In this document: in pieces, positions 1,547-9,672 of the stretch
How the letters are laid out: the number at the start of each line of letters is the position of its first letter
How positions within the stretch are numbered: the first letter of the stretch is position 1
Source of the DNA: Exiguobacterium sp. s122
GTDB lineage: Bacteria > Bacillota > Bacilli > Exiguobacteriales > Exiguobacteriaceae
Assembly (NCBI RefSeq): GCF_018618475.1
Contig: NZ_JACSMD010000001.1
Coordinates: 186,001 to 250,000 of the forward strand
Reading direction: 5' to 3'
Length of the DNA stretch: 64,000 bases
Notes under the pieces: model-generated
Seen by the model: only the letters and a program-made list of their open reading frames with translations
Database searches by the model: none
What the model was told of the DNA's origin: nothing
Made by a program: the position numbers and the translations under genes

Positions 1547-2497
1547 ATGGAACTATTGACGTTTTTATTGACGAGCGCACCGGTATTAATGTTTGTGACC
1601 GGCGTTGTGGCCGCGCTCGGGAAGTCGAACTTAAAAATCCCAGAGTCGCTCGGCATCACGCTCAACTTGTATTTATTGCTCGCAATCGGCCTAAAAGGCG
1701 GAATGGGGCTTGCCTCGGTCTCATTTGACGATTTGGCGCTCCCGCTCGCGGTGACGCTCGTACTCGGGATGGTGTTACCGCTCGTCGCGTTCGGACTCGG
1801 TGGCCTGTTCAAATTTAGTTTTCATGAACGTATCGCGATGGCGGCGACGTTTGGCTCGGTCTCGCTCGTGACGTATGTCGCCGCAGCGTCTCAACTCGAA
1901 CGGCTCGGCATTGGCTTTGAACCGTTCATGACGACGCTCGTCGTCGTCTTAGAAATTCCAGGTCTCGTCGTCGCGCTCTTGTTGTACAATCAGACACGCG
2001 TCTTTGGGATTACGGCGCCACCAAGCCAATCGTTCACGGTCATTCGAGACAGTATGCTATCAAAAAGCATCCTACTTCTCATCGCCGGGCTCATCGTCGG
2101 ACTCGTGACGCCAGACACGTCGGCGCTCACACCGTTCTTTATCGATTTATTCCCGGGGGTGCTTCTCTTATTCTTGCTCAGCCTTGGCGTCAAAGTCGGG
2201 CAACAGTTGAAGACTGTCCCGTCTTATGGGATCAAGTTTTTAGTCATCGGGATGACGTTCCCACTGATTGGCGCGGCGATTGGTTATGCCGGTGCTATGT
2301 TTGCCGGGTTGTCAGACGGTGGAACGATTCTTCTTATGACGCTCGCAGCGAGCGGGTCGTACATCGCCGCCCCGGCGATGCTTCAGGCGTCCGTACCTGA
2401 AGCGGAACTGTCCTTTTATTTGACGCTCGCCCTCGCCGTCACGTTCCCGTTCAACTTGCTCGTCGGAATTCCGCTCTTCATCACAATTGTCACATAA
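1547..2497 (+). CDS. SbtA/DUF897-like sodium-dependent bicarbonate-type transporter
   Basis: A 316-residue integral membrane protein with about ten hydrophobic segments, resembling the DUF897/SbtA family of sodium-dependent anion (bicarbonate in cyanobacteria) transporters. Family-like features are a repeated two-half topology and small-residue-rich stretches (GMGLASVSFDD near 60; ASGSYIAAPAMLQ near 270). The ATG at 1547 was chosen because TAGGAGGAG lies 6 bases upstream; an in-frame start at 1517 falls inside the terminator. The substrate in Firmicutes is not established. Expression is probably controlled by the leader RNA just upstream. It is monocistronic, ending in a bidirectional terminator. 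Confidence 0.8.
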   Translation: MELLTFLLTSAPVLMFVTGVVAALGKSNLKIPESLGITLNLYLLLAIGLKGGMGLASVSFDDLALPLAVTLVLGMVLPLVAFGLGGLFKFSFHERIAMAATFGSVSLVTYVAAASQLERLGIGFEPFMTTLVVVLEIPGLVVALLLYNQTRVFGITAPPSQSFTVIRDSMLSKSILLLIAGLIVGLVTPDTSALTPFFIDLFPGVLLLFLLSLGVKVGQQLKTVPSYGIKFLVIGMTFPLIGAAIGYAGAMFAGLSDGGTILLMTLAASGSYIAAPAMLQASVPEAELSFYLTLALAVTFPFNLLVGIPLFITIVT

Positions 2498-2534
2498 ATA
2501 AACGCCGTCTCGGCTTCGAGACGGCGTTTATTTA
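2497..2534. terminator. Bidirectional terminator
   Basis: Stem AAATAAACGCCGTCTC with its complement GAGACGGCGTTTATTT and a GGCTTC loop lies between converging genes; A/T tracts on both sides let it work on both strands. Confidence 0.85.
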
Positions 2535-3284
2535 TTGTGTCACGGCTTGTTCTTGCATGCATTTCAATGCAGCAGTCCAACTACCGAATAAGGCATTGAT
2601 TGTCGACGTGCTCGGCACGTTTCGCCCCTCTGCCCATTTCCGGTAATGGAGAATGCTGAAATGATTCAATTCATTTTTAGCAAGTCGAAGCGCCTCGATG
2701 ACGTCTTCTTCGTCCCATTTCCGTTTTGGTGGAGCGATGTCCAGTACAAACAAGGCATAGCTCCAAGAACCATACTTCCGGGCAATTGTCGCCACGGTCG
2801 GATAACCTTTTTCTTGTGCCCAGACGGCATAATGTTGCGACGTGAGCCGTTCAAGCTCGGTTGACGCCTCGATGAGGGCCTGAATAATTCGCTCTTCATT
2901 GTTTTTAGAGGCTGTCGTTTGTAATTTCGCTTCACGTAATGCGTTGGACCAAGAGCCGAAACGACTACTGATGAGTGTAAGCGAAGGAGAACGTGTCACT
3001 TTGGACCATTGGCGATATGTTTGGCTCGTAAATAATGGTAGCTCTTCAGCGGCTTGATTGAGTGCGCGCAGGATGTCTTCATCCGAATAATAATGGAATG
3101 ACATTTGAATTTGAGCTGCAACAAGTGCCTCGCGCCAAGATCCAAATTGATGAATGACAGTCGACAGAGAAGGTACGTTTTTATGTTGTGACCAAAGACT
3201 GTAGCGTTTTGAATCAAGTTCTGGATAGTCCTGGGCAGCTAACTGCAAAGATTGCACGATTTGTGGGCGTGTCCATTTTTTCAT
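2532..3284 (-). CDS. Protein of four homing-endonuclease-associated repeats, no nuclease domain
   Basis: A 250-residue protein built almost wholly of four ~62-residue repeats starting near residues 1, 64, 127 and 188. Each repeat reads as a helix (IIQALxxAxxEL), a Y-x-x-W pair, a P-S/T-x-x-x-I turn and a closing FGSWxxAL helix. This resembles the HNH_repeat (homing endonuclease associated repeat, Pfam PF18780), a presumed DNA-binding module. No HNH, LAGLIDADG or GIY-YIG catalytic motif is present. A three-repeat paralogue lies at 7613-8197, across the sugar gene cluster. The start has AAGGAGAG 7 bases upstream. A regulator or DNA-binding role is inference. Confidence 0.75.
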   Translation of the reverse strand: MKKWTRPQIVQSLQLAAQDYPELDSKRYSLWSQHKNVPSLSTVIHQFGSWREALVAAQIQMSFHYYSDEDILRALNQAAEELPLFTSQTYRQWSKVTRSPSLTLISSRFGSWSNALREAKLQTTASKNNEERIIQALIEASTELERLTSQHYAVWAQEKGYPTVATIARKYGSWSYALFVLDIAPPKRKWDEEDVIEALRLAKNELNHFSILHYRKWAEGRNVPSTSTINALFGSWTAALKCMQEQAVTQ

Positions 3285-3698
3285 CTTGGTGTCTCTCCTT
3301 TTGTGAAGACGTCATGAGCGTCTCAGAAGAATTCGTGGTGTGAATGAACGTGTGTGAGTGGTTTTACCAAATAAGTTCAAGTAATAGACACTACTTAGGT
3401 TCACGTGCCTCCTTTCATCCGTTAAATCCCTTTACAGAAGTAAATGTAAGCAATAACCAATTAGTGATTATGTACATAGTGTTTCCCTTTTGCCAAACAA
3501 ATATTCATCATGTGAAGGAAATGACGAGAATTATTTTGTTAACTCCTTTATCCCGGCTATTTCGTTGATTAGAAAAAGCTCGTGTTCTCCTTAAGTTTGT
3601 TAGATTGAGTCGGGTAGTTTACTACCATCACCATGCATTATGCTCCGACCTCAACACACCACGACACGACAACTTAGACTTTGGAGGTGCACATCATA
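3285..3698. other. Gene-free, AT-rich divergent regulatory region
   Basis: About 410 bases between the divergent repeat-protein gene and the sugar dehydratase gene. It is clearly more AT-rich than the neighbouring core genes and has no ORF I can support. It should hold the promoters of both transcription units. The only distinct element I see is the inverted repeat at 3613-3626. No JUMPstart/ops element was found. Confidence 0.6.
3613..3626. promoter_or_regulatory. Perfect inverted repeat upstream of the sugar cluster
   Basis: GGTAG-TTTA-CTACC, 73 bases before the dehydratase start codon. It could be an operator or a small leader hairpin; there is no T-run, so it is not a terminator. Confidence 0.4.
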
Positions 3699-5606
3699 AT
3701 GGCTACATTGGTCAGCGTATATCAGAAAAACCAGAAAAACTTACGTTTTCTTTTGCTTGACGTGTTCATTGTCACATTCGTTCTTTACGCGACGATGCGC
3801 TTTTTAATTCCTAATCCAACAATTGACACGAATGGATTATGGGCAAGCATTGCCGTCAAAGTTGGAAGCTTTGGCGCGCTCGGTTTTATTCTGAAAATCC
3901 ATAAAATTGATTGGCGTTATGCCTCGGTTCGTGAAGTGGAGCGGTTGATGATCGCTTTACTCGGGAGTGACATCGTGCTATACGCCTACAGTTACTTTCA
4001 ATTCGGAAATGGGGTAGGACTCGGGATTACGATTCAAGGTCTGCTCGCTCTTAACGTCATCGTAGCAACGCGAATCATGGCGCGAACTCATGTGTTACAT
4101 CCATTCAAATCATCGAATGACCATCCAGGCCGAAAAGCAGTGATTATCGGCGCCGGGCATTCTGGACAAATGATTGTCCGTGAGTTGAAAGAGTATCGGA
4201 CGAATGTCTTAAACGTTGTCGGATTGCTCGATGACGACTCCAAAATACAATCCCTTTATGTTCATGGCGTTCCAATCATTGGGACGACCGATGAGTTAGA
4301 ACGAGTAGTGAACGAACAGTGCATTGAAGTAGTCATTTTAGCAATTCCTAGTTTGTCCTATACACGTCGGCTTGCTCTATTAAAACGAATTGAAAAGACA
4401 GGTGCTGAATCCCATGCGTTGCCGATTCTTTCAGAGCTTGCGACCGGAAACGTATCGATTAGCGAAATTCGTGAAGTGAAAATTGAAGAGCTGTTAGGTC
4501 GAGAGCCGGTCCAACTCGATATCTCAGGTATTTCTCGACATGTTGAAGGCGCGAAAGTGTTAATCACGGGGGCAGGAGGATCGATTGGCTCTGAGATTTG
4601 TCGCCAATTGATTAAATTCGAACCCGCCGAAATGATTTTACTTGGACACGGGGAGAACAGCATCTATTTGATTGAACGGGAGCTGAAGGGACTCTGTACG
4701 CATACGGTGATTCACGCTGTGATTGGTGATGTGCAGGATGAACGTCGGATGGAAGAAATTTTTGCGACCTATCAGCCTGAGATGGTATATCATGCGGCTG
4801 CTCATAAACATGTTCCTTTAATGGAAGACAATCCACTCGAGGCGGTAAAAAACAACATTCACGGCACAAAAAATATGGTGGATGTCGCTGCAAGACATCA
4901 GGTTAATCGATTTGTCATGATTTCCACAGATAAAGCTGTCAATCCAACAAACGTGATGGGGGCGACAAAACGGATCGCCGAAATGATCGTTCAAGAAAAA
5001 GCTAGATCGACGGATACGATTTTCTCGGTCGTCCGATTCGGAAACGTTCTAGGAAGTCGAGGATCCGTTGTCCCTCTCTTTAAAGAGCAAATTAAACGAG
5101 GGGGACCGGTCACGGTCACAGACGCGGAGATGACCCGATACTTCATGACTATCCCTGAAGCAAGTCGATTGGTCATTCAAGCGAGCGTCTTAGCAAGAGG
5201 GGGAGAAGTATTCGTCCTCGACATGGGTGAACCGGTCAAAATCATCGATTTAGCGAAGAAAATGATTGAGTTAAGTGGTTTTAGTCTCGACCATATCGAC
5301 ATTGAAGTTACGGGTATTCGGCCAGGTGAAAAGCTTTATGAAGAATTGCTTGCCACGAATGAACTCGGACCCGACGCCAACGTCTTTGACAAAATTTTTG
5401 TCGGACGGACACGACCGTTCACGTCAGTCACCCCGATTCTTATCCTTCTCGAGAAGCTTCAGTACCAACGCGAGGCATTGATTTACACGCTGCTTTATAT
5501 CGCCAACAGTGAAGACATCGATCGGGATGTGGAGCGCTTGTATCAAGGTGAGTTTAAGTGGGCAGCTTCGCCATCGAAAAAAATGCGACTTGTGGATGGG
5601 AACTGA
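3699..5606 (+). CDS. Membrane UDP-sugar 4,6-dehydratase (CapD/EpsC/WbpM type)
   Basis: A 635-residue polysaccharide biosynthesis protein. Four N-terminal membrane helices (about 17-130) precede a first Rossmann-like CoA-binding_3 domain (GAGHSG, 151-156) and a C-terminal short-chain dehydratase domain (TGAGGSIGSE, 290-299). The catalytic triad is Ser409-Met420-Lys424, the Ser-Met-Lys variant typical of WbpM/CapD UDP-GlcNAc 4,6-dehydratases. It should make UDP-4-keto-6-deoxy sugar at the membrane. The ATG at 3699 follows GGAGGTG; an upstream in-frame TTG at 3681 overlaps that RBS. First gene of a low-GC sugar cluster. Confidence 0.88.
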   Translation: MATLVSVYQKNQKNLRFLLLDVFIVTFVLYATMRFLIPNPTIDTNGLWASIAVKVGSFGALGFILKIHKIDWRYASVREVERLMIALLGSDIVLYAYSYFQFGNGVGLGITIQGLLALNVIVATRIMARTHVLHPFKSSNDHPGRKAVIIGAGHSGQMIVRELKEYRTNVLNVVGLLDDDSKIQSLYVHGVPIIGTTDELERVVNEQCIEVVILAIPSLSYTRRLALLKRIEKTGAESHALPILSELATGNVSISEIREVKIEELLGREPVQLDISGISRHVEGAKVLITGAGGSIGSEICRQLIKFEPAEMILLGHGENSIYLIERELKGLCTHTVIHAVIGDVQDERRMEEIFATYQPEMVYHAAAHKHVPLMEDNPLEAVKNNIHGTKNMVDVAARHQVNRFVMISTDKAVNPTNVMGATKRIAEMIVQEKARSTDTIFSVVRFGNVLGSRGSVVPLFKEQIKRGGPVTVTDAEMTRYFMTIPEASRLVIQASVLARGGEVFVLDMGEPVKIIDLAKKMIELSGFSLDHIDIEVTGIRPGEKLYEELLATNELGPDANVFDKIFVGRTRPFTSVTPILILLEKLQYQREALIYTLLYIANSEDIDRDVERLYQGEFKWAASPSKKMRLVDGN

Positions 5607-5636
5607 GCCGGAATGGAATCGACAGGAGGAGTTTTT

Positions 5637-6455
5637 GTGAAAGAGCGAGTCGTCATAGTTGGTGTGTCTGGTTTCGAGGGATTTCATCTGGCACGTCATT
5701 TTTTGAAGGAAGGTCATGAAGTGATCGGGCTTGATGAACAAGGAGCTGGTCACACATCGCTAGCGAAACATCGTCTTTATGTTTTGTCCCATCCGAAGTT
5801 TCGTCTCGTGCAAACAAAAAGGTTAAATGGCCAATTGCTAAAACGAGTCGCAAGTACGTACGCCTTTCAATGCGTGATTTTATGTCCGTCCGATGATCAC
5901 GGAAGTGAATTTCGCTACCATCTAGTTCAAAAGTGGCTCCGTACTGACACAACCCTTCGAGACGTTACGTTTATCACACTAAACGTTCATGGAGACGATG
6001 ATTCACAAGTCGTTCAAGTGAAAACGAACGAATTGTCAGGTCCTTGGGAAGATGAAACGGGGCTATTCACTCGCTTAATCAAAGTGATCGTGTTAGGGCG
6101 ACCGCCTGTCGGAATGTATGCAAATACCCATATTCAATTTTTATACGTAGATGACGTCGTAAAGACAATGTATGAAATCATGCAAATGGCACAGTTTGAA
6201 AATGTCTATGGGCGCTATGACATTGAGCCAACTGAAATGCTCACTTCTCAAACTGCCATCTTAGACGTTGCGCGCTTATTAAAGCGACCACCACTTGTCT
6301 TACCCGATGGGGAAATGAAGACCTCGCTGGTTATGCCGTCCATTGAAACGGCAATCGCGCCCCCCGCGTCTACCACCTCATTTTATGAAGGACTTGAAGT
6401 CTATTTGGACTGGTACACAACGTATCAAAAAGTGTTGGAGGAGGGGATTCGATGA
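5637..6455 (+). CDS. NAD-dependent epimerase/dehydratase-like protein (degenerate)
   Basis: A 272-residue protein with an N-terminal Rossmann start (VVIVGVSGFEGFH, GxxGxxG preserved) and a general extended-SDR layout, including a FLYVDDVVKTMYE stretch typical of NAD-sugar epimerases. I cannot find the YxxxK catalytic pair or the usual acidic residue after beta-2. It may bind a nucleotide sugar without normal epimerase chemistry. GTG at 5637 was chosen because AGGAGG sits 7 bases upstream; the ATG at 5613 lacks an RBS. It follows the dehydratase by 30 bases and overlaps the aminotransferase start (ATGA). Confidence 0.65.
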   Translation: MKERVVIVGVSGFEGFHLARHFLKEGHEVIGLDEQGAGHTSLAKHRLYVLSHPKFRLVQTKRLNGQLLKRVASTYAFQCVILCPSDDHGSEFRYHLVQKWLRTDTTLRDVTFITLNVHGDDDSQVVQVKTNELSGPWEDETGLFTRLIKVIVLGRPPVGMYANTHIQFLYVDDVVKTMYEIMQMAQFENVYGRYDIEPTEMLTSQTAILDVARLLKRPPLVLPDGEMKTSLVMPSIETAIAPPASTTSFYEGLEVYLDWYTTYQKVLEEGIR

Positions 6456-7600
6456 AAATTTTATTATCCCGACCGCATATGTCTGGTCATGAGATGAAAT
6501 ATGTAGAAGAAGCGTTTGCTTCAAACTGGGTGGCACCTCTCGGTCCTAACGTCGACGCATTTGAAAAAGAAGTAGGGACGTATGTTGATCATGACTTCCA
6601 ATTAGCGACGAGTTCCGGTACGGCAGCGCTCCATCTCGCTCTTTTACTATTAGGAATCGAGCGGGATGACACGGTGTTTTGTCAATCACTCACGTTTGTG
6701 GCCTCTGTCAATCCGATTCGTTATGTAGGGGCCGTCCCTGTCTTTATTGACTCGGAAGAAGAGACATGGAACATGTCACCTAGCGCGCTTCGAAAAGCGA
6801 TGGTTCAAGCTGCAACAAAGGGAAAACTGCCGAAGGCTGTCATCGTCGTTCATCTATATGGTGTCGTCGCAAAAATAGGTGAGATTCGACAAATTTGTCA
6901 AGAGTACGGGGTTCCGCTCGTTGAAGATGCAGCGGAGTCGCTTGGCGCCACGTGGAAAGGACAAATGACCGGCACGATTGGAGATTTAGGATTTTATTCA
7001 TTTAATGGCAATAAAATCATCACTACTTCGGGAGGGGGGATGTTACTTGTTCGCTCTTCAAAAGAGCGACAACACGGATTGAAGTTAGCGACTCAGGCGA
7101 GAGAAAACGCGCTCCATTACGAGCACGAGGAGGTTGGTTACAACTATCGTTTGAGTAACGTGTCAGCTGGAATTGGTAGAGGACAACTTGAAGTGATTGA
7201 AAGTCGTGTCCAAGCGAGGAGGCGAGTATTTGCTCGGTACGAGCGATTATTACGTCCCTTAGGAGTCACTTATCAACAAGAAATTCCTTATTCTCGAGCG
7301 AATCGATGGTTGACGGCTCTACAATTAAATCGTTCTGAATTTGTAACGTCACGCGAAGATCTCATTACTCGTCTTGCCATGAACGGAATCGAATCACGTC
7401 CCGTTTGGAAGCCAATGCACTTACAACCCGTGTATCGTGATGCGGAATATGTAATGGTAGACGGCGATGACGTGAGTCGGCGTTTGTTCGAGAACGGGAT
7501 TTGCTTACCGTCTGGTTCTGACTTAACCATTGGTGAGCAACATCAAGTCATCCGGGCAGTGTTAAACGCGCAAGGTATTGTGACAGAAATAACTGTTTGA
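6452..7600 (+). CDS. DegT/DnrJ/EryC1/StrS sugar aminotransferase
   Basis: A 382-residue PLP-dependent aminotransferase that would transaminate a 4-keto nucleotide sugar, as PglE/PseC-type enzymes do. Visible features are SSGTAALHLAL (54-64), the PLP-binding VEDAAESLG (Asp159) and the Schiff-base Lys188 in FYSFNGNK, followed by GGG. Its start overlaps the previous stop and has GGAGGAGG upstream. Next to the 4,6-dehydratase it gives the first two steps of a bacillosamine-like 4-amino-4,6-dideoxy sugar. No glycosyltransferase lies in the cluster, so the final acceptor is unknown. Confidence 0.88.
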   Translation: MKILLSRPHMSGHEMKYVEEAFASNWVAPLGPNVDAFEKEVGTYVDHDFQLATSSGTAALHLALLLLGIERDDTVFCQSLTFVASVNPIRYVGAVPVFIDSEEETWNMSPSALRKAMVQAATKGKLPKAVIVVHLYGVVAKIGEIRQICQEYGVPLVEDAAESLGATWKGQMTGTIGDLGFYSFNGNKIITTSGGGMLLVRSSKERQHGLKLATQARENALHYEHEEVGYNYRLSNVSAGIGRGQLEVIESRVQARRRVFARYERLLRPLGVTYQQEIPYSRANRWLTALQLNRSEFVTSREDLITRLAMNGIESRPVWKPMHLQPVYRDAEYVMVDGDDVSRRLFENGICLPSGSDLTIGEQHQVIRAVLNAQGIVTEITV

Positions 7601-7612
7601 GGAGGACCTGTC

Positions 7613-8197
7613 ATGAATCAGGAAGCAGAGATTATACAAGCGCTTCAAGCAGCTTCATCTCTGACTCCGACCCTCACAGTCAAACAATATCAACTATGGA
7701 GTCAAGACAAAATCGTTCCCTCGGTGCTCGAGATTCTAGATGTTTATGAATCTTGGCCAGAAGCGCTTGTCGCAGCTGGGATTCTAGGAAGCCGAAGAAA
7801 TTATACACAACATGAGTTGCTCGTCTCCTTGCGAAACGCCTCGCAAGAAGATGGACGACTCACGAGCACGAGTTATCGACAATGGGCGACGTACAATAAA
7901 GCCCCTTCGTTAGGCGATATTATTTCATATTTCGGGTCATGGAGTCTCGCCGTCAAAATAGCGGAACGAGCAGTCGATCCACATTCTACAATCCATGCTG
8001 AACGGGAAAAAGCAGAGATTGTTCAGGCCTTATTAGAGGCGGCCAGGATATTGCATCCTTTTAATGCAGAGACGTATCAAAAATGGGCGAAACAACAAAA
8101 ACGTCCGAGTGTTGCTAAAATCTCGAGACGATACGGGTCATGGGGAAATGCGTTGAGTGATCTTGAATTAGATGAGGAATCCTTTCAAGTTCAATAA
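7613..8197 (+). CDS. Protein of three homing-endonuclease-associated repeats
   Basis: A 194-residue protein of three copies of the same ~62-residue module as the gene at 2532-3284: helix, Y-x-x-W (YQLW, YRQW, YQKW), P-S-x-x-x-I, then (F/Y)GSW. The first copy has degenerated to YESW. No nuclease domain is present. It sits inside the sugar operon, 12 bases after the aminotransferase with a TGAGGAGG RBS and directly before the formyltransferase-like gene. The family is the putative DNA-binding HNH_repeat; a role as regulator of, or scaffold for, the sugar locus is inference. Confidence 0.72.
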   Translation: MNQEAEIIQALQAASSLTPTLTVKQYQLWSQDKIVPSVLEILDVYESWPEALVAAGILGSRRNYTQHELLVSLRNASQEDGRLTSTSYRQWATYNKAPSLGDIISYFGSWSLAVKIAERAVDPHSTIHAEREKAEIVQALLEAARILHPFNAETYQKWAKQQKRPSVAKISRRYGSWGNALSDLELDEESFQVQ

Positions 8198-8227
8198 ATG
8201 AAACTATCCTACAAAGAAGGTGTAGCC

Positions 8228-8881
8228 ATGAATCGTCCGATTGTCCTTTGTGTCGGGGAGCATTGGAGTTCAGCTTATGTCTATCACGCGATTCGTAATC
8301 TTGGCGTGACACACGTCATTATGGAAAAAGGACCGTCACCATTTGAGGCCGAATCGTCTCATGACCTTTTATTAGATGTCTTGATGAAACGAATTTCGCC
8401 CGTCATGAAATGGATGAGTCGCCGCCGGATTGCAGAATTAAAGGAGCGATATCCGTTAAAAGATGAACCGATCCCGATGCATCACATCTTGAAAGTCACT
8501 TCGCTAAACGATGCAAGGACGAAGATGTGGCTCGATCGCCTCATGCCGGAGCTTCTCATTTTTCATGAAACGGGGCCCATCGACCCGGACGTGCTCAATC
8601 GGATGGACTGTCCAGTCTTGACGATCCGACCATCGATGGCAGCTGGACAACTCGAAGCATATTGGGCACTTCGGGCCAATCCGGACATCTGTGAAGTCCG
8701 AATCGAGCAATGGACGGAGCAGGGATGGGATATCCGGGATCGATCGCTTCTTTATTTAGGGGGTACTGATAATTTTGTGACTTATCCGTATCTTCAACTC
8801 TCAGTCGCCCTGCCGCTCTTACGTTGTCAGATTGAGCAGATGCTGCAACCGGCCAAGCAGGAACGAAGAAGAATCGAATAA
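8228..8881 (+). CDS. Formyltransferase-like protein with altered catalytic residues
   Basis: A 217-residue protein whose layout resembles formyltransferases acting on methionyl-tRNA or amino sugars. SLNDARTKMWLDRLMPELLIF recalls the segment before the active site, and PVLTIRPSMAAG sits where the family has NxHPSLLP. The catalytic Asn and His would be Thr132 and Arg134, and the later DTGD-like motif reads QGWD, so ordinary formyl transfer looks unlikely. The ATG at 8228 has GAAGGTG upstream and is preferred over the one at 8198 abutting the previous stop. Its place after a sugar aminotransferase matches N-formyl-sugar clusters. Fold assignment is by eye. Confidence 0.5.
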   Translation: MNRPIVLCVGEHWSSAYVYHAIRNLGVTHVIMEKGPSPFEAESSHDLLLDVLMKRISPVMKWMSRRRIAELKERYPLKDEPIPMHHILKVTSLNDARTKMWLDRLMPELLIFHETGPIDPDVLNRMDCPVLTIRPSMAAGQLEAYWALRANPDICEVRIEQWTEQGWDIRDRSLLYLGGTDNFVTYPYLQLSVALPLLRCQIEQMLQPAKQERRRIE

Positions 8882-8914
8882 AAACGGCCAAAGCGATTCG
8901 CTTTGGCCGTTTAA
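8882..8914. terminator. Bidirectional terminator
   Basis: A 14-bp perfect stem AAACGGCCAAAGCG/CGCTTTGGCCGTTT with a 3-base loop between converging genes. Confidence 0.85.
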
Positions 8915-9672
8915 CTGTGGGTGATGCAATAGTGCTGGATGGCATCGTTGTAATAGCGGGCAAGGCCTGGGGCGTACTTGTCATAGAACGCCGTGAACCG
9001 CTCGTCCGCCACATACATCTGACCGAGGCTACTGAACATGTCGAGCGAACAGTCGTAAAAGTGGTCGTTGATGAATGCATGGTTCATCTCGACCGCCATT
9101 TGGACACGTTCATCTTCGACTGGGACACCGGCAGTGAACAAGTCGACGAGCGGTTTGACGAGGTCGACTTGCTGTTGGCTGAGCGTCTCCCAGTCTTCTT
9201 TTGACCGACCGTGGGCCCGCTTTTGAGCCGTCATATAGGCGTCGCTGTCGCCCCAACGCGACTTCACTTCCGCCTCGTGTTTCGTCTCGTGTGCTTTCAA
9301 CTCGTCGAATGACAAGCCTTTGAATAATGATTCGTCTTCCATTTGAACGCCTCCTTCAAGTGAGACGAGTGTCGCTTCGGCCGTCTCAGCGAGTGTCGCG
9401 AAATAGGCGGCCTTCTCACGCAGCGCGTTCACTTGTGTCTTGAGGATGTGAGCCCGATCCGTGCCCGCTTCGAACAACGTATGAATCGTCTCGAGCGGAA
9501 TGTCGAGTGCGCGATAGAGTAAAATCAGTTGCAACCGTTCGATGTCTTGTTTCGAGTAACGTCGATACCCGTTCGCGTCACGCGAAGGAACGAGGAGACC
9601 GATCGCGTCGTAATGGCGAAGCGTCCGGGTCGTCGTGCCGGCGAGTGTTGCGAGTTGTTGAATCGAAACCAT
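8911..9672 (-). CDS. MerR-family regulator with TipAS ligand-binding domain
   Basis: A 253-residue transcription factor. Residues 1-70 form the MerR winged helix (TTRTLRHYDAIGLL, GYRRYSKQDIERLQ), followed by a coiled-coil dimerisation helix (about 75-110) and a TipAS-type antibiotic-recognition domain (about 120-250, with EVKSRWGDSDAY and FYDCSLDMFSSLGQMY). Such proteins bind thiopeptides or other hydrophobic drugs and activate efflux or their own gene. RBS AAGGAGGTGAG precedes the start. No drug pump lies alongside; the divergent or downstream target is unclear. Confidence 0.88.
   Translation of the reverse strand: MVSIQQLATLAGTTTRTLRHYDAIGLLVPSRDANGYRRYSKQDIERLQLILLYRALDIPLETIHTLFEAGTDRAHILKTQVNALREKAAYFATLAETAEATLVSLEGGVQMEDESLFKGLSFDELKAHETKHEAEVKSRWGDSDAYMTAQKRAHGRSKEDWETLSQQQVDLVKPLVDLFTAGVPVEDERVQMAVEMNHAFINDHFYDCSLDMFSSLGQMYVADERFTAFYDKYAPGLARYYNDAIQHYCITHS

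Follow-up and report, generated by a model that had tools for sequence, protein, structure and literature searches.

What do two proteins that are made only of homing-endonuclease-associated repeats do at the two ends of a sugar operon? The question arises from a stretch of 64,000 nucleotides of Exiguobacterium sp. s122 (contig NZ_JACSMD010000001.1, positions 186,001 to 250,000), here called the window, in whose own numbering positions are given. The gene at 2532-3284 encodes the first of these proteins, HNHR-A, and the gene at 7613-8197 the second, HNHR-B. It seems rather probable, if well short of certain, that HNHR-A is a modular, sequence-specific regulator of the divergent sugar operon and that HNHR-B is its operon-encoded partner. 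In this reading we infer the DNA binding, the binding site, the sign of regulation and the role of HNHR-B.

Both proteins belong to the PF18780 (HNH_repeat) family. In a Pfam search, for which matches were listed up to an E value of 1 and the curated cut-off of this family is 26 bits, HNHR-A scored 81.6 bits (E 5.2e-23) in four stretches and HNHR-B 52.6 bits (E 5.7e-14) in three, in agreement with the four and three repeats described in a first-pass annotation of this DNA. That annotation had also reported that no nuclease domain is present, and among the same matches no nuclease domain, be it of the HNH, GIY-YIG or LAGLIDADG type, was found in either protein. Because a nuclease domain is absent, the identification of HNHR-A and HNHR-B as homing endonucleases is rejected. 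The length of about 62 residues given for the module is likewise confirmed: the FGSW-type anchors of HNHR-A are spaced by exactly 62 residues (offsets 46, 108, 170 and 232), and those of HNHR-B lie at 44, 106 and 173. The repeats and the missing nuclease domain are directly supported. The basic isoelectric point (pI) of HNHR-A counts in favour of a DNA-binding regulator.

2532-3284, minus strand: HNHR-A, a protein of 250 residues and pI 9.1 with four HNH_repeat modules; all 38 family genomes have an orthologue.
3114-3275, minus strand: HNHR-A repeat 1 (residues 4-57), putative recognition helix PSLSTVIHQF.
2928-3089, minus strand: HNHR-A repeat 2 (residues 66-119), putative recognition helix PSLTLISSRF.
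2745-2900, minus strand: HNHR-A repeat 3 (residues 129-180), putative recognition helix PTVATIARKY, the same in sister-clade rows.
2556-2717, minus strand: HNHR-A repeat 4 (residues 190-243), putative recognition helix PSTSTINALF, the same in sister-clade rows.
7613-8197, plus strand: HNHR-B, 194 residues, three HNH_repeat modules, pI 5.8, orthologue in 38 of 38 family genomes.
7619-7780, 7802-7966 and 8009-8164, plus strand: the HNH_repeat modules of HNHR-B.

Conservation of the pair was assessed with an array-profile search of 38 family genomes, 19 of the window's genus group and 19 of a sister group. HNHR-A and HNHR-B are held by all 38. In 37 of these genomes the two genes are located on one contig and on opposite strands, separated by 4.3-14.6 kb (inner gap); in the remaining one (G026) they are split over two contigs. 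Scanning named genomes with the array profile gave 34 loci, all from Exiguobacterium, including those of 10 sister-clade genomes with both proteins. The gene capD is the divergent neighbour of HNHR-A in 19/19 same-genus loci, and a simple gene caller placed HNHR-B at the operon tail in 18 of them, the exception being G011, where a raw open reading frame puts it there. In the sister clade the same bracket encloses a larger locus; HNHR-A comes after a Wzy-like gene there and stands head-to-head with Wzz-capD-Wzx in four of the five loci opened (in the fifth, L073, the contig ends at HNHR-A). An aminotransferase gene immediately precedes HNHR-B in all four sister-clade loci opened at that side, with an overlap of 4 bases in three. 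Since the genes beyond the bracket are not the same in the two clades, the bracket travels with the sugar locus. The retention of both genes and the bracket are directly supported, and the context of the pair within Exiguobacterium is non-random. The first-pass annotation had named a random context across homologues as an argument against its proposal; the survey of neighbourhoods within Exiguobacterium found a recurrent association with polysaccharide loci instead.

The operon within the bracket runs from a CapD/PglF-like dehydratase through an epimerase-like protein and a LegC/DegT-like aminotransferase to HNHR-B and a 227-residue protein. Its low GC content, which had been noted before, is evident: 1-kb bins between 3001 and 9000 have 41.6-48.1%, those just outside 51.3-55.4%. 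The description of one repeat gene as divergent from the cluster and of the other as lying inside it also holds, with HNHR-A head-to-head with the dehydratase gene and HNHR-B starting 12 nucleotides past the aminotransferase stop.

3681-5606, plus strand: CapD/PglF-like NDP-sugar 4,6-dehydratase (Polysacc_synt_2), with an ATG at 3699 after a ribosome-binding site.
5613-6455, plus strand: NAD-dependent epimerase-like protein (Pfam).
6452-7600, plus strand: DegT/LegC-like sugar aminotransferase, the operon gene before HNHR-B.
8198-8881, plus strand: 227-residue protein, no Pfam family above cut-off, conserved downstream of HNHR-B.

At its other end, HNHR-A is separated from a convergent transporter gene by a strong inverted repeat (2488-2542), which is probably the shared terminator of the two genes. 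Two Rfam matches to microRNA models at this repeat, on both strands, are below gathering score, and no Rfam family reaches gathering score within 2480-9000.

Two alternative cassettes occupy the bracket in the 19 same-genus genomes. The short type I, found in 13, has the order capD-epimerase-aminotransferase-HNHR-B, with three repeats in HNHR-B. Type II, found in six (G003, G006, G009, G010, G012 and G014), has the order capD-epimerase-two proteins of about 450 residues-UDP-sugar dehydrogenase-glycosyltransferase-HNHR-B, with four repeats in HNHR-B. HNHR-A follows the cassette: identity to the window's protein is 90-95% in type I and 78-81% in type II, and in the trees of HNHR-A and of capD all six type II genomes stand on one side of a 100/100 split (6/13). 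A tree of flanking genes, in which SBT and MerR each cover 18/19 rows, does not split by cassette; there G009 (100/98) and G014 (99/96), both of type II, are grouped with the window, and G003 (type II) pairs with G004 (type I; 88/89). The gene of the 227-residue protein follows the cassette type only partly (tree of 18/19 rows). This linkage of HNHR-A allele and cassette is directly supported, and the trees indicate that HNHR-A accompanies the cassettes when these are exchanged between species. Within each type, the HNHR-A tree follows two species groups. Because the order inside each type matches these groups, the types look like two old allelic cassettes. A novel mobile system, which had been offered as an alternative function of the repeat arrays, receives no direct support: cassettes swap with HNHR-A, and the repeat proteins are not shown to be the cause.

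On the premise that the array reads DNA module by module, helix 3 of each module was expected to be variable between repeats and fixed between orthologues. Among themselves, the repeats of HNHR-A share 33% identity in this putative recognition helix, 36% in helix 1, 42% in helix 2 and 57% in the segment of GSW and helix 4. Compared with 10 sister-clade rows, the putative recognition helix is 82% identical, versus 59% for the whole protein; the other segments reach 50% (helix 1), 59% (helix 2) and 72% (GSW and helix 4). In repeats 3 and 4 it is 100% identical to the sister-clade rows. The putative recognition helix is therefore the best-conserved helix across clades though variable between repeats, a pattern that is directly observed. 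Repeats 2, 3 and 4 of the sister-clade HNHR-B find their best matches in repeats 2, 3 and 4 of HNHR-A, respectively, and the third helix of sister-clade HNHR-B repeat 3 is one K/R change away from that of HNHR-A. Since these repeat-3 helices differ by a single K/R, HNHR-A and HNHR-B may have part of their DNA target in common. In the window, the last repeat of HNHR-B scores 118 to HNHR-A repeat 2 and 114 to repeat 3; HNHR-B repeat 1 was missed by the program that split the repeats.

The AlphaFold2 model of HNHR-A shows four beads of four helices each, joined by loose linkers (mean predicted local distance difference test, pLDDT, 85.5; predicted template modelling score, pTM, 0.36), and a model of repeat 2 alone, built from 44 repeats, reaches a pLDDT of 90.5 and a pTM of 0.75. 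When the whole of HNHR-A was compared by VIA-align, transcription regulators made up 47 of the 50 rows, and nearly all of these were N-terminal TetR-type domains; the remaining three are two ribosomal chains and a ubiquitin-ligase complex. The TetR-type alignments cover HNHR-A repeats 1, 3 and 4 singly, over about 51-60 residues and with Z scores of 5.7-3.9. For the repeat-2 model, all six VIA-align entries with a Z score of at least 2 are DNA-binding or regulatory proteins (Z 4.9-2.2). The likeness to the TetR DNA-binding domain, tested as a helix-turn-helix (HTH) fold, is modest, with a Z score of at most 5.7 over about 57 residues. The helix arrangement predicted for HNHR-A thus aligns with this domain repeat by repeat, but HNHR-A differs from the TetR family in carrying several domains per chain and in having neither a TetR_N match nor a ligand domain. 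A true TetR relative is ruled out on sequence, as TetR_N (PF00440) gave no Pfam match up to E 1 in HNHR-A or HNHR-B and the hhalign comparison described below gave 1.5%. A search for relatives of solved structure by sequence produced two matches (E 0.21 and 0.36), apparently due to chance. The first-pass annotation had held that a non-DNA-binding fold would speak against its proposal. The predicted four-helix beads resemble HTH domains, which leaves the proposal standing on this point; homology to HTH profiles, as far as three families can tell, is missing.

The region between HNHR-A and capD was compared between the cassette types, in which it is hard to align apart from shared blocks. The type I profile comprised 12 of 13 rows (without G005) and the sister-clade profile 9 of 10 (without L093), and the type II profile included about 120 nucleotides of capD coding sequence. 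For type I versus type II, 60 column permutations gave a null score of 15.9 on average (standard deviation 1.7, maximum 22.2).

3559-3636, plus strand: 78-nucleotide control block common to both cassette types, upstream of capD; score 35.2.
3285-3298, minus strand: conserved block before the HNHR-A start, including its ribosome-binding site; score 24.7 against the null maximum of 22.2.
3334-3350, no strand assigned: conserved GTGGTGTGAATGAAC-like element, candidate operator near HNHR-A; score 20.1, within the null range (maximum 22.2).
3597-3625, plus strand: promoter-like TTGTTA-N17-TACTAC, read by eye and below the threshold of the scanner.
3612-3629, plus strand: 18-mer GGGTAGTTTACTACCATC, across the spacer and the -10.

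The conserved control block is directly supported. The promoter-like sequence lies inside it and has an unusually conserved spacer. A degenerate form of the 18-mer occurs in one copy, at this locus, in 15/19 same-genus genomes and is absent from the other 18 genomes searched, four of which belong to the sister clade; a reversed control gave no match. Only the uniqueness of this pattern is informative, because it was written from these very sequences. Promoter and terminator scanning of the locus gave no excess of sites. A control motif common with the sister clade was rejected, since nothing exceeded the null.

We propose that HNHR-A would act as four tandem HTH-like modules that together form a sequence-specific DNA binder. 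The third helix of each module (P-S/T-x-x-T-I-x-x-x-F/Y, just before G-S-W) would be placed in the DNA groove, and the array would recognise a single long, asymmetric site between HNHR-A and capD, within 3285-3698. This site would probably be the block 3559-3636, which covers the promoter-like sequence of the operon, and HNHR-A would thereby control the capD-epimerase-aminotransferase operon along with its own, divergently oriented gene. HNHR-B, a putative whole-array paralogue made from the operon end, would have part of the recognition surface in common with HNHR-A and would probably compete with it or modify it, as feedback. Functionally, such arrays would be analogous to Myb repeats and zinc-finger arrays, which are multi-module DNA readers with several small modules per chain and different recognition helices. 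We know of no specificity code for the PF18780 module.

Several results weigh against this proposal. The conservation test of the putative recognition helix is weak and no more than suggestive, with a circular-shift fraction of 0.055 for the sister rows and 0.10 for type II; between repeats, helix 1 diverges almost as much as helix 3 (36% and 33%), and the putative recognition helix of repeat 1 is just 50% conserved in sister-clade rows. On the DNA side, no control block in common with the sister clade scored beyond the null (best 18.5; null mean 15.9, standard deviation 2.1, maximum 23.3), although the helices of repeats 3 and 4 are identical there, and the promoter scan found neither a site at 3597-3625 nor an excess (7 versus 9.4 expected). 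VIA-align Z scores below 8 may reflect nothing beyond a common arrangement of helices. Foldseek returned no match at E<=0.001 for HNHR-A or the single-repeat model. In hhalign, a profile of 45 non-redundant repeats (of 187) gave 1.5% with TetR, 4.0% with HTH_3 and 15.6% with GntR and hence no homology to these HTH families, whereas these three family profiles, taken from the same genome (nine TetR_N domains for TetR), found one another at 70.5-84.7%. Additionally, HNHR-B is acidic (pI 5.8), and a sensory domain is absent. The earlier suggestion that the arrays are sequence-specific binders controlling this locus thus stands in part: the proteins are nuclease-free, their predicted fold is HTH-like and their association with polysaccharide loci is recurrent, while binding and control are deduced and homology to the three HTH profiles compared is lacking.

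The number of modules in HNHR-B differs between the cassettes. Type I HNHR-B misses repeat 4 altogether, and in type II the reading frame breaks at repeat 4 in 4/6 genomes. Three of these (G006, G009 and G014) have a common one-base gap six bases past an in-frame A_AAA_AAG.

L044:5920-6681 (minus strand), L047:15408-16127 (plus strand) and L052:15574-16275 (plus strand): HNHR-B with A_AAA_AAG, gap and stem in three type II genomes.
L050:15961-16596, plus strand: HNHR-B of G012, with TGA replacing a tryptophan codon just before the repeat-4 recognition helix.

In G012, the remainder of repeat 4 is intact past the TGA. In the three heptamer genomes, the -1 frame restores repeat 4 (DGKGPALK-QQMFGSF in the first 66 nucleotides after the heptamer). 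Differences in this frame fall mostly on third positions over the 66 nucleotides (3/1/10, 2/1/9 and 1/0/8 at codon positions 1/2/3), and the bias is weaker over 100 nucleotides (11/8/18, 10/8/13 and 5/4/16). From the fifth base downstream of the heptamer, a stem with 10 or more pairs forms in 3/3 heptamer genomes, as against 0/3 genomes that lack the heptamer; one of its G-C pairs is changed to A-U with both sides altered, and the folding z-scores are unremarkable (0.36, -1.29 and -0.03). Programmed -1 frameshifting is known from dnaX. Judged from these sequences, it is a fair hypothesis that repeat 4 of HNHR-B is made in the three genomes only by programmed -1 frameshifting at A_AAA_AAG. A phase-variable system, also suggested earlier, is unsupported for the window; in type II cassettes a -1 frameshift or a stop codon seems to make repeat 4 of HNHR-B optional.

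A more elaborate form of the proposal, to which we give only limited credence, is a two-protein modular switch. Here, basic four-module HNHR-A would read a long asymmetric operator at the head of the surface-sugar cassette, and HNHR-B, made from the last position of the cassette, would be a competing array. Its module number would be tuned, with three in type I and a fourth in type II provided only by a -1 shift of the ribosome at A_AAA_AAG before the stem. Each exchangeable cassette would then carry a matched regulator pair, with two HNHR-B forms of different reach.

Relatives elsewhere show the range of proteins in which the module is used. A third paralogue in the window's genome, HNHR-C (G000:C1:542 kb), is present in 19/19 same-genus genomes (for instance L038:7566-8234, minus strand). 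It is convergent with a gene of one GGDEF cluster in 11/11 loci opened (six same-genus, five sister), and its other neighbour is a BacA-cluster gene in 5/6 same-genus loci. A further three-repeat paralogue of the sister clade (L060, L063 and L071) occurs in two contexts, with MarR- or ArsR-type regulator genes nearby. In the class as a whole, 95/398 genomes have PF18780 matches, 38 being the family itself and 57 lying outside. A plasmid search gave 31 records, many of them haloarchaeal, of which three were opened, and a phage search gave two, both of one Halorubrum virus whose HNH-annotated protein is a relative.

L057:6755-9184, minus strand: ResIII helicase with N-terminal PLDc_2 and one PF18780 repeat near the C-terminus.
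L124:9577-10692, minus strand: TnsA-like endonuclease domain joined to a PF18780 repeat.
L169:2582-5056, plus strand: Bacillus subtilis plasmid NZ_CP103996.1, nuclease-free protein with 14 repeat stretches, near an integrase.
L171:3884-6202, plus strand: Halobacterium pHS1 NC_010366.1, nuclease-free protein with 9 repeat stretches, near RepH.

Proteins of L074 and L075 cluster with the L057 helicase, and the L124 fusion is possibly, to judge from its domains, a new architecture of a transposon or defence nuclease. Two more nuclease-free arrays lie beside a helicase and a DNA methylase (L122, one repeat stretch) and beside a DNA ligase and an HNH protein (L123, four). The module accompanies DNA-acting proteins, and its occurrence outside the family in the ResIII/PLDc_2 helicase and the TnsA-like protein favours the regulator proposal. 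The stand-alone arrays of NZ_CP103996.1, NC_010366.1, L122 and L123 resemble the HNHR pair in that PF18780 is their sole strong family; they differ in their neighbours, which are integrase, RepH, helicase, DNA methylase or DNA ligase and not polysaccharide genes. No array at a polysaccharide locus was found outside the family in eight class-level loci (L121-L128; five read by open reading frame and repeat profile alone, L122-L124 also by Pfam) and three plasmid regions. The few stand-alone arrays opened outside the family are in phage- or plasmid-like settings, and we therefore assign the link to sugar genes to Exiguobacterium. The HNHR pair shares with the PF18780 family a match above cut-off and departs from the homing-endonuclease repeat in being nuclease-free, chromosomal, conserved and placed around a sugar operon. 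The accession and name of PF18780 appear in a modelling table of one paper (PMC8078820), and text searches of the literature found no study of this protein family or locus.

Other explanations of the pair have to be considered. As DNA-binding architecture or recombination factors, the proteins would bridge or protect the cassette ends or help exchange rather than regulate transcription. Their position at the two ends, the segregation of alternative cassettes with their own HNHR-A and the related arrays beside an integrase (B. subtilis plasmid) and near a replication gene (pHS1) would suit such factors, but Pfam finds no recombinase or nuclease domain in them and the HNHR-A tree, by following species groups inside each type, fits old alleles better than active mobility; we regard this role as unlikely. 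Equally unlikely is that the proteins regulate mainly another target and that their linkage to the operon reflects mere common inheritance of the locus. No sister-clade control block could be matched, and HNHR-C has a GGDEF gene next to it and in some genomes also BacA, which would agree with a target elsewhere; on the other hand, HNHR-A tracks the cassette and not the flanking genes, and the bracket recurs in the sister clade despite different surrounding genes.

Two further possibilities appear very improbable. That the proteins are homing-endonuclease remnants with no present function might be suggested by the name of the Pfam family, by the HNH-annotated Halorubrum phage relative and by type II HNHR-B, whose repeat 4 can no longer be read in the zero frame in 4 of 6 genomes; it is difficult to reconcile with retention in every family genome and with recognition helices of repeats 3 and 4 that are identical across clades. 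The arrays might also bind RNA, be it the leader of the operon or some other transcript, and exert their effect once transcription has started. Helical repeat proteins can bind RNA, and the conserved block extends into the presumed leader, but the predicted beads resemble HTH domains and not a superhelix, and the Rfam result for 2480-9000 likewise speaks against it.

So far, the PF18780 module has been known just for its accessory role in homing endonucleases. Should nuclease-free arrays prove to be true regulators, as we propose for HNHR-A, a large set of uncharacterised repeat proteins would gain a function, and the natural series of 3, 4, 9 and 14 repeats, with recognition helices that are specific to their position, could reveal how the module reads DNA. 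Surface-polysaccharide cassettes would then have a regulator pair that travels with them.

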